NCBI RefSeq assembly: GCF_025999835.1
Contig: NZ_AP025628.1
Location: 1,054,001-1,118,000, forward strand
DNA length: 64,000 nucleotides
Source: Caldinitratiruptor microaerophilus
GTDB taxonomy: Bacteria; Bacillota; Sulfobacillia; Symbiobacteriales; ZC4RG38
Direction of reading: 5' to 3'
The translations under genes and the position numbers were made by a program. The notes beneath the pieces were generated by a model. That model searched no databases. It saw only the letters and a list, made by a program, of their open reading frames with translations, and was not told the DNA's origin. Shown one piece after another: positions 31,068 through 33,793 of this stretch; position 1 is the first letter of the stretch; each line of letters begins with the position of its first letter.

Positions 31068-31829
31068 TTGCACTGGTGGGACGAAGCCGAGCACCGCGCG
31101 CTCCGCCAGCGCGGGCAGGCGACGCTGGCGCTCGGCATCTGGCGCCGGCTGCGGGAGGCCGGCTTCGACGCGCACCTGAGCCTCCTTCCGGCTCACGGCC
31201 TCGCACGGCTGTACCTGGCCGCCTGCGATCTCGTGCAGGTGACCGAATCCCTCCTGGTTGCGCCGGCCGGAGAGCTGTCCCTGCACCTGTACGAACTGGC
31301 GGACTGGTGCCGGGCGGCGTGGGCCGCCGTCGACTGGAGCGAGCGGCCGTTTCTCGTCCTCCTGGACAGCCTGCGCCTCGACCCCGACGACTGGCCTCCC
31401 GCCGCCGCGGCGGGTGCCGGGGCGGTGACGCCGGCGCCGCCCCCGGAGGAGGCTCCCAAGCTGGAGGGGCGTTACGAGCGCCGCCACCTCCTGTACGAGC
31501 GCCTGGACCTCCGGATGGAGGCGGAGGGGCTCCCCGCCGAGGTGCGCCGGCCCCTGGCCCGCGACCTCGCCACCGTCTACGAGGAGTTCCTCGTGACCCT
31601 GTGGCAGGTGCACGACCTGCTGTCGGCGGGAGAGAGGGCGCGCCGCCGGGCGTGGGAGCGCCTGCTCGTGGACGTGAACGCTACCTTCCACTTCCACGTG
31701 GGGCCGCGCTACCTGCGGCCGGGGCCGCCGGACCCGGGGGCGCCGGGGGGATTCCCTCTCCCCGGCTGGGTCGCGCTGGCGCTCTCGGGCGGTATGGCGG
31801 GCCCAGCGCCCGTGGGAGGCGAATCTTGA
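31068..31829 (+). CDS. Hypothetical helical protein, 253 aa
   Basis: Begins MHWWDEAEHRALRQRGQ at a TTG preceded by GGGAGGCGGGG. It is mainly alpha-helical with many Leu, Arg and Trp, a Pro/Ala linker near residue 115, and a second helical part (RRHLLYERLDLRMEAEGLPAEV in parts). No family, signal peptide or membrane segment is recognised. In Bacillus recA occupies the position before rny; this gene is unrelated to it. Confidence 0.6.
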   Translation: MHWWDEAEHRALRQRGQATLALGIWRRLREAGFDAHLSLLPAHGLARLYLAACDLVQVTESLLVAPAGELSLHLYELADWCRAAWAAVDWSERPFLVLLDSLRLDPDDWPPAAAAGAGAVTPAPPPEEAPKLEGRYERRHLLYERLDLRMEAEGLPAEVRRPLARDLATVYEEFLVTLWQVHDLLSAGERARRRAWERLLVDVNATFHFHVGPRYLRPGPPDPGAPGGFPLPGWVALALSGGMAGPAPVGGES

Positions 31830-31855
31830 CACAAGAGAACTGCGGGCGGTATGCT
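31826..31855 (+). promoter_or_regulatory. Sigma-A promoter upstream of the rny leader
   Basis: A perfect TTGACA (31826-31831), an 18-bp spacer and TATGCT (31850-31855) end at the 3' edge of the preceding gene. Transcription would start near 31862, about 380 bases before rny. Confidence 0.65.
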
Positions 31856-31861
31856 AACGCG

Positions 31862-32200
31862 TAGATTCGCGTCGGCATGTGATCCCCCATCAGGTTCTGC
31901 ATAGATCGGCAGCAGGGTCTGTAGCGTGGCCCCGTTGCCGCCCTATCGGGCGACGGAACATATCCGGGTGCACACTGCACCCGCTGTGGCCGGAAACACG
32001 GTCCGGACTTCCGGAACTACGCCCGGCGGAGGGTTGCACGACCGGAACGAATTTTGTTTATGGCGGTTGCGGCGAAGCCGCGTCCGGCGGGAGCCCCCGG
32101 GGGGCGTCCCGCGACATAAGCAAAATGACCCAGGTCGGCCGCGCGATGGGAACGATCCATGCCGAACCGGATCGCACAGGTTCGGCTTCTTCTTTTTCTC
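31862..32200 (+). ncRNA. Candidate structured leader or small RNA before rny
   Basis: Between a sigma-A promoter and an intrinsic terminator lies about 340 bases without a convincing gene. Visible hairpins are CGCCC/GGGCG around 31940, GGGTGCA/TGCACCC (31966-31982), and a three-way-junction-like block at 32051-32126. In that block ATTTTGTTTATG pairs with CATAAGCAAAAT and encloses GCGGC-GAA-GCCGC and a nested GCGGGA/TCCCGC stem. It matches no RNA class I know (not tmRNA, 6S, SRP or RNase P by their conserved cores). Confidence 0.5.
32161..32199 (+). terminator. Intrinsic terminator upstream of rny
   Basis: GCCGAACC (32161-32168), a 10-base loop, GGTTCGGC (32179-32186) and a T-rich tail TTCTTCTTTTTC form a canonical terminator only 44 bases before the rny start, so it may act as an attenuator for rny. 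Confidence 0.8.
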
Positions 32201-32242
32201 TGCTCATAGGCTCACACGGGCAGAGACCCTGGACCGGAGGGG

Positions 32243-33793
32243 GTGAAGAGCACGACGGCAGGTATCACGATCGGGATCGCAGCGGTGGCGCTCGTTGCCG
32301 GGGCCGCCGCCGGCTACCTGTTCCGCAAGGTGCAGGCCGAGCGCGGGGTGGCGGCCGCCGAGGCCCGGGCGCGCGAGATCCTCGAGGAGGCCCAGCGGCA
32401 GGCGGAAGCGCACCGCAAGGAGGCAGTGCTGGAGGCGAAGGAAGAGGTTCACCGCCAGCGCCAGGAGTTCGAGCGCGAGCTCCGGGAGCGCCGGGCGGAG
32501 ATCCAGCGCCTGGAGCGCCGCCTCGTGCAGAAGGAGGAGCACCTGGACCGCAAGGTCGAGAGCCTCGAGCGCAAGGAGGAGCAGCTCGCACGCCGGGAGC
32601 GGGAGCTCCAGCGGCAGCAGGAAGTGCTCCAGGACCTCGAACAGCAGAAGCGGGCGGAACTGGAGCGGATCTCCGGGCTCAGCCAGGAGGAGGCGCAGCG
32701 GCTCTTCCTCGCGCAGGTCGAACAGGAGGCCCGCCAGGATGCGGCCCGGCTGGTCCGGGAGATCGAGCAGCAGGCCCGCGAGGAGGCGGAACGCCGGGCG
32801 CGGGACATCCTGTCCACCGCCATCCAGCGGATCGCCGCCGACCACACGTCGGAGACCACCATCACGGTGGTGCAGCTGCCCAACGACGAGATGAAGGGCC
32901 GGATCATCGGCCGCGAGGGCCGGAACATCCGGACCCTGGAAACCCTGACGGGCATCGACCTCATCATCGACGATACGCCGGAGGCCGTTGTCGTCTCCGG
33001 CTTCGACCCGATCCGCCGCGAGGTGGCCCGGGTGGCTCTCCAGAAGCTCATCGCCGACGGCCGGATCCACCCGGCCCGCATCGAGGAGATGGTGGAGAAG
33101 GCGCAGCGGGAGATCGAGCAGCGGATCCGGGAAGAGGGCGAAGCGGCGTGCTTCGAGACCGGCGTGCACGGCCTGCACCCCGAGCTGGTGAAGCTCCTGG
33201 GCCGGCTCCGGTTCCGCTATTCGTATGGCCAGAACGTCCTGAAGCACTCGATCGAGGTGGCCCACCTGGCAGGCATCATGGCGTCCGAGCTGGGCGTGAA
33301 CGCCGAGGTCGCTCGCCGGGCCGGGCTCTTGCACGACATCGGCAAGGCGGTCGACCACGAGATGGAGGGCTCCCACGTGCAGATCGGGGTGCACCTCCTG
33401 CGCAAGTACAGGGAGCACCCTGACGTGATCCACGCCATGGAGACCCACCACGGGGACGTGGAGCCCCGCTCCGTGGAGGCGGTCCTGGTCACGGCGGCGG
33501 ACGCCGTGTCGGCGTCGCGCCCCGGGGCGCGCCGGGAGACCCTCGAGAGCTACATCAAGCGGCTGGAGAAGCTGGAGGCCATCGCGGACTCCTTCGAAGG
33601 GGTCGAGAAGGCGTACGCCATCCAGGCCGGGCGCGAGGTCCGGATCATGGTCAAGCCGGATCGGGTGGACGACTTCGGCGCGATCAAGCTGTCCAAGGAG
33701 ATCGCGCAGCGCATCGAGAACGAGCTCGAGTACCCGGGCCAGATCAAGGTCACGGTCATCCGGGAGAGCCGCGCGGTGGAGTACGCGCGCTGA
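32243..33793 (+). CDS. rny: Ribonuclease Y
   Basis: Membrane-anchored endoribonuclease of 516 residues that initiates mRNA decay. An N-terminal transmembrane segment ([16 protein letters not shown]) is followed by about 150 residues of charged coiled coil (repeated [17 protein letters not shown] type), a KH domain ([15 protein letters not shown]), and an HD domain with [10 protein letters not shown] and HVQIGVHLL. The GTG start has GGAGG very close (2 bases), which may lower translation. ymdB and spoVS follow as in Bacillus. An intrinsic terminator lies in the leader. Confidence 0.96.

Follow-up and report, generated by a model that had tools for sequence, protein, structure and literature searches.

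A structured leader with antiterminator and terminator elements precedes the RNase Y gene of Caldinitratiruptor microaerophilus, and similar leaders precede rny across much of Bacillota

Results

The rny locus and its promoter

The window analysed here is a 64,000-nt stretch of the C. microaerophilus genome (contig NZ_AP025628.1, positions 1,054,001 to 1,118,000); coordinates below are positions within it, and all of the features described lie on the forward strand. The gene for RNase Y, rny, occupies 32243-33793 (TIGR03319, E 4e-236) and is followed by a gene matching the profile of the TIGR00282-family phosphoesterases, and then by what we take, from its sequence, to be a spoVS-like gene. 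Directly upstream of the rny promoter sits a gene for a 253-aa protein (31068-31829), whose stop codon overlaps the -35 box; homologues occupy the same position elsewhere in the order (L005, L006, L008 and L009), and a search of the protein against NCBIfam profiles gave no match.

The promoter itself is of the sigma-A type (31826-31855), with a -35 box TTGACA at 31826-31831, an 18-nt spacer and a -10 box TATGCT at 31850-31855. It is the single sigma-70-type site between 31000 and 33000, where shuffled sequences give an expectation of 0.0, and the same arrangement is found 5' of rny in relatives. Transcription is predicted to start near 31862, and a transcript running through the last base of the U-tract (32198) would give a leader RNA of about 337 nt (31862-32198), for which relatives carry positional homologues. 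The minimum free energy of 31862-32290 is -203.7 kcal/mol (z -3.6), with none of 100 shuffles equally stable. At its 3' end lies an intrinsic terminator (32161-32198), comprising an 8-bp stem, GCCGAACC (32161-32168) with GGTTCGGC (32179-32186), and the tract TTCTTCTTTTTC (32187-32198); 44 bases separate its end from the annotated rny GTG at 32243. A previous sequence-only reading of this DNA had described a consensus sigma-A promoter, a structured leader of about 340 bases and a strong terminator 44 bases before the rny start, and our analysis agrees with it on all three.

As in an attenuator, promoter, leader and intrinsic terminator all lie before the first rny codon. Scanning the window revealed no second promoter between the terminator and rny, so that transcription of rny from the promoter at 31826-31855 depends on read-through.

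Comparison with known RNA classes

The sequence-only reading had recognised no known class in this leader and had proposed an Rfam scan. Run at the gathering threshold, Rfam 15 returned 0 matches in the window and 40 other rny loci (41 loci), and at a relaxed threshold the window region gave chance matches only, such that the earlier impression holds. A search for tRNA and tmRNA was likewise negative. The rny leader has a leader, terminator and antiterminator in common with T-box and other Rfam leaders, but is unmatched by any Rfam model. We also considered, and rejected, a ribosome-coupled (peptide-leader) attenuator: the window and 11 of the 12 relatives scanned showed no credible leader open reading frame with a Shine-Dalgarno sequence.

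Similar leaders precede rny across much of Bacillota

A DNA-level homology search of 100 relatives found no relatives of the leader; its single match, L002, falls inside a fabH-like gene and was rejected as a chance hit. We therefore gathered rny loci by protein and compared their upstream DNA by position. A promoter with at least 11 of the 12 consensus bases is present in 66% of 164 rny upstream regions (0% when shuffled), and a terminator in 71% of 143 leaders, the Lachnospiraceae type being excluded (7% when shuffled); leader length ranges from about 100 to 530 nt. Within a non-redundant set of 111 rny leaders, the terminator-stem sequence CCGAGU occurs in 30, against 4.6 expected, and the motif AUAGAU in 26, again against 4.6 expected, nearly always at +31 to +50 from the predicted start. 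In the window this motif lies at about +40 (31901-31906). The remaining interior of the leader is hypervariable in both sequence and length, by hundreds of bases, and has no large conserved pocket. Similar leaders precede RNase Y genes across much of Bacillota. Candidates for a second conserved motif, inside the long-range helix described below (GACAACC, for example), were found in a handful of leaders, are not general, and were set aside.

The layout of promoter plus AUAGAU occurs once in the 3.6-Mb genome of the window, at rny. A class-wide pattern search gave roughly 50 matches, 21 of which lie directly upstream of rny by comparison of coordinates, and no second recurrent gene was seen behind the layout amongst these matches, although this is a limited test. 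Set against the riboswitch pattern of a core 5' of related genes, the leader has one short core motif, recurrent at rny only.

A different type of leader precedes rny at 24 loci of the Lachnospiraceae type (L087, L094 and L111, for example). These leaders are short, have no terminator and follow the pattern UUGUA...UACAAUGAAAACUAAAUAAGGAGGUGCUCCUG, with variable hairpins within UUGUA/UACAA, a boxA-like GAAAACUAAAUA and a Shine-Dalgarno sequence that sits in a small hairpin; they too gave no match in Rfam. Separately, bases 1-400 of L007 contain a repeated AT-rich segment (GGCCACGGATTTCACTGATT...) that adjoins rny on that contig, and appears to be an intergenic repeat.

A long-range helix links the 5' end to the terminator

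Across leaders, the strand immediately 5' of AUAGAU pairs with the strand immediately 5' of the terminator, forming a helix (P1) that is absent from the sequence-only reading. In the window, its pairs are 31872-31879/32158-32165, 31881-31884/32154-32157 and 31886-31891/32145-32150. The inner part of the helix, drawn from the minimum free energy fold, brings together a 5' strand at 31881-31891 (GAUC, 31881-31884; CCCAUC, 31886-31891) and a 3' strand at 32145-32157 (GAUGGG, 32145-32150; GAUC, 32154-32157). The outer part, also from folding, joins the 5' antiterminator strand GAUUCGCGUCGGCAUG (31864-31879) to its partner CAUGCCGAACCGGAUC (32158-32173), which overlaps the 5' arm of the terminator. 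Unconstrained folding produces P1 in most of the leaders examined.

Both P1 strands pair better with each other than with partners swapped between species (mean -18.4 versus -13.7 kcal/mol, z -8.3, 0/20,000 permutations, n=36). As this set had been partly picked by eye, and was anchored on the motif, we repeated the test on later-fetched leaders using fixed blocks and no motif, with a similar outcome (z -7.2, 0/20,000 permutations, n=14). The sequence-only reading had named a lack of covariation as counting against a regulatory RNA; the co-variation of P1 is strong, and holds in the independent set.

This co-variation would be unexpected if the hairpin were a mere terminator or insulator for transcription arriving from the upstream gene, with P1 incidental. 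That a same-strand gene ends at 31829 lends this explanation something, but the terminator is preceded by a consensus promoter and followed by none; the explanation is already disfavoured, and we regard it as very improbable indeed.

Antiterminator and terminator compete for the same strand

In the window, outer P1 takes GCCGA of the terminator 5' arm and, when the 3' arm of the terminator is blocked, extends to 31864-31869/32168-32173, so covering the whole 5' arm. Capture of this arm is also seen in both other members of the window's family and, with other sequences, in a sister family (L006-L009) and in L010. The same pairing is made with different letters, UCGGCAUG:CAUGCCGA in the window versus GAUUCGUGUCC:GGGGACCGAGUC in its family, whilst the version in the sister family is GGUCCG:CGGACC. 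When 5' ends were tested against their own terminator 5' arms, all 5,000 of 5,000 permutations were weaker (swap z -7.7, n=68); against shuffles, z is -2.9 for the window and -4.4 for its family, as compared to a mean z of 0.07 for a control region from about +44. A later set gave a weaker result (swap z -3.2, 6/20,000, n=18).

Saying this, exclusivity is not universal, because in many other lineages P1 ends beside the terminator without overlapping it. Mutual exclusivity of antiterminator and terminator is therefore claimed for the window and its order, where the co-varying, exclusive antiterminator is strong; it is weaker in other lineages, and for the wider group the claim is of P1 plus a terminator. 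Counting against our preferred explanation, P1 formation in the window would still leave room beside it for a weaker hairpin, CCGGAUC/GGUUCGG. A distinct arrangement is found in L177, L179, L183 and L202, where a 5'-proximal GAAAC has GUUUC partners available next to the motif, within the P1 3' strand and inside the terminator loop GAGUUUCUAC, making a three-way competition possible.

The two states are finely balanced. For the window, the antiterminator fold has an energy of -167.5 kcal/mol versus -164.8 kcal/mol for the terminator fold, and in all 8 leaders folded the states differ by about 1 to 8 kcal/mol, the antiterminator being favoured in five, and the terminator slightly in L006, L007 and L010. 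Near-equality of this kind is what might be seen in a fixed-level attenuator, in which a constant fraction of polymerases passes, or where the terminated leader is itself the product, as an independent small RNA; every part of the leader would work without any signal. However, a 5'-end antiterminator maintained across hypervariable interiors exceeds the needs of a constant, and conservation of the interior is below that expected of a trans-acting RNA, leading us to consider either version improbable.

An AT-rich block fills part of the helix

Folding places a two-hairpin block at 32050-32126, closed by an AT-rich stem, UUUUGUUUAUG/CAUAAGCAAAA, with arms TTTTGTTTATG (32052-32062) and CATAAGCAAAA (32115-32125). 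The unusually AT-rich closing arms noted in the sequence-only reading (at 32051-32126) are genuine in this sense: UUUUG/CAAAA is invariant in 7/7 sequences of the order, the adjacent position switching between C-G and U-G. Its outer pairs carry little covariation, because they never vary. The inner hairpins are unrelated in sequence across the order and, as they do not align, MAFFT/RNAalifold recovered the closing stem with a covariation term of almost nil. The block belongs to the local filling of P1, outside the conserved core.

The rny start codon

The Shine-Dalgarno sequence of rny is extended (GGAGGGGGTGA, 32236-32246) and unusually strong, with relatives carrying GGAGGTGA. The annotated GTG at 32243 falls within it, and the next in-frame candidate at the usual spacing is an ACG at 32252. 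We surveyed 160 distinct rny loci, each with at least 7 of the 8 bases of GGAGGTGA. A canonical start (ATG, GTG or TTG) is in frame at a spacing of 6-11 in 75; another 73 have ATT (41), ATA (19) or ATC (13) instead, mostly at a spacing of 8-9; CTG or ACG takes the position in 8, and neither kind is found in 4. For the 81 non-canonical loci, reading upstream in frame meets a stop before any canonical codon in 31, and in 30 the sole canonical codon sits inside the Shine-Dalgarno sequence; in a few, an ATG follows one codon later. Apparent non-canonical starts are a feature of about half of the 160 loci, among them the window (32236-32254; ACG at 32252, unless the GTG within the Shine-Dalgarno sequence is used), L006-L009 and L173-L202.

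Judged from the codons, this pattern suggests that initiation of rny at AUU, AUA or AUC may be IF3-sensitive and throttled. In S. aureus, extended Shine-Dalgarno motifs drive AUU/AUA starts at roughly 10% of AUG expression (PMC13009471), and if such initiation holds for rny, translation as well as transcription would throttle its output.

Discussion

The conserved promoter and terminator, the helix P1, the exclusive pairing and the balance of energies are all products of computation, and from these we infer that the leader terminates and reads through in cells. We propose that it is a cis-acting attenuator that sets the level of rny mRNA, the signal most likely being RNase Y activity, through cleavage or binding; on balance, this is the reading towards which we lean. 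RNA polymerase would start near 31862 and synthesise some 300 nt of leader. Should the first ~20 nt still be present and free as the 3' part appears, they would pair with 32158-32173 (P1), capturing the terminator 5' arm and permitting read-through into rny; if they were unavailable, GCCGAACC would instead pair with GGUUCGGC, and transcription would stop at about 32198. Because the pairing is made by the first ~20 nt, such a switch would report on whether the nascent 5' end is intact or available, and since the antiterminator strand lies at the very 5' terminus, it would stay on only if that terminus survives, free, for the several seconds that synthesis of the leader takes. This location suggests sensing of nuclease activity, with RNase Y the most likely source (negative autoregulation), where cleavage in or near AUAGAU, just inside P1, or binding there, would set the switch. 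The sequence-only reading had proposed an autoregulated leader with controlled read-through; its layout stands, with an architecture that recurs phylum-wide and an exclusive antiterminator/terminator pair, whilst the autoregulation keeps the conditional strength given here.

More tentatively, and with doubts of our own, we speculate that the leader might be an RNA-integrity sensor, in which excess RNase Y (or RNase J), by cutting or trimming the leader as it is made, would cause transcription to end prematurely and so silence its own gene. Two points count against cleavage: RNase Y is a membrane-bound enzyme, and at ~40 nt/s the synthesis of about 300 nt would leave only seconds in which to cut. 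Cleavage of the nascent leader by RNase Y is compatible with its anatomy and with autoregulation in B. subtilis, but would be kinetically demanding. In S. aureus, RNase Y favours cleavage 3' of a G in AU-rich RNA (PMC4608709); AUAGAU, at +31 to +50, is a conserved AU-rich motif containing a G. Accessibility of this motif is modest: in nascent folds it is slightly more unpaired than its surroundings (0.55 versus 0.46), and in the window the figure is 0.36.

The same attenuator could answer to another signal, with a metabolite, an ion, another RNA-binding protein or RNA polymerase binding the P1/AUAGAU core and stabilising or destabilising the antiterminator, in the manner of a riboswitch or ribosomal-protein leader. 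The order of parts, a conserved core beside a closing helix and then a terminator, is riboswitch-like, and rny mRNA co-purifies with RNA polymerase ~64-fold in B. subtilis (PMC11077062). Against this, ligand riboswitches usually serve several genes, whereas the layout recurs at rny only, within the limits of the class-wide test, and the variable interior offers no large pocket; we judge another signal a lesser, though real, possibility, and continue to favour RNase Y activity.

Attenuators and RNase autoregulation are already known kinds of control. In E. coli, a bound stem-loop in rne speeds mRNA decay, and in the rplJL attenuator of B. subtilis the gene product is the regulator, just as RNase Y is the presumed regulator of its own leader. 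The rne 5' UTR is likewise a structured feedback leader of a main decay-initiating endonuclease, RNase E (cf. PMC10303841), but its sequence is unrelated to that of the rny leader and it does not involve transcription attenuation. Competition between antiterminator and terminator is common to the rny and rplJL leaders (cf. PMC4538822); the gene and RNA differ, and in rny the antiterminator strand comes from the very start of the transcript and the interior is hypervariable. Closest is B. subtilis rny itself, which shares the gene, a sigma-A promoter and a long 5' UTR: RNase Y autoregulates, with cuts in its own 5' UTR concentrated in the first 50 nt, although it is the first ~100 nt of the open reading frame, not the leader, that accounts for most of the autoregulation (Korobeinikova et al. 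2023, PMC10303841). The route there is mRNA decay, in which RNase Y cuts both the UTR and the beginning of the reading frame (its first ~100 nt) and RNase J1 follows, and that UTR is 164 nt with neither terminator nor antiterminator described (PMC10303841), as against about 337 nt, with both, in the window. In three Clostridia, the rny promoter and 5' UTR length are conserved (PMC9045289). No terminator/antiterminator leader of rny is described in the open-access literature that we searched; published control of rny concerns one species and is decay-based, from which an attenuator route differs.

RNase Y initiates RNA decay in many Gram-positive bacteria, including much of Bacillota, and whatever sets its level therefore sets global RNA lifetime. 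A phylum-wide attenuator at rny, with a defined switch and no Rfam entry, opens dosage control of the decay machinery to direct testing, and may be an instance of transcription being governed by the activity of a nuclease on the nascent transcript. If the integrity sensor proves true, it would be an attenuator with nuclease activity as its input, conserved across much of Bacillota.
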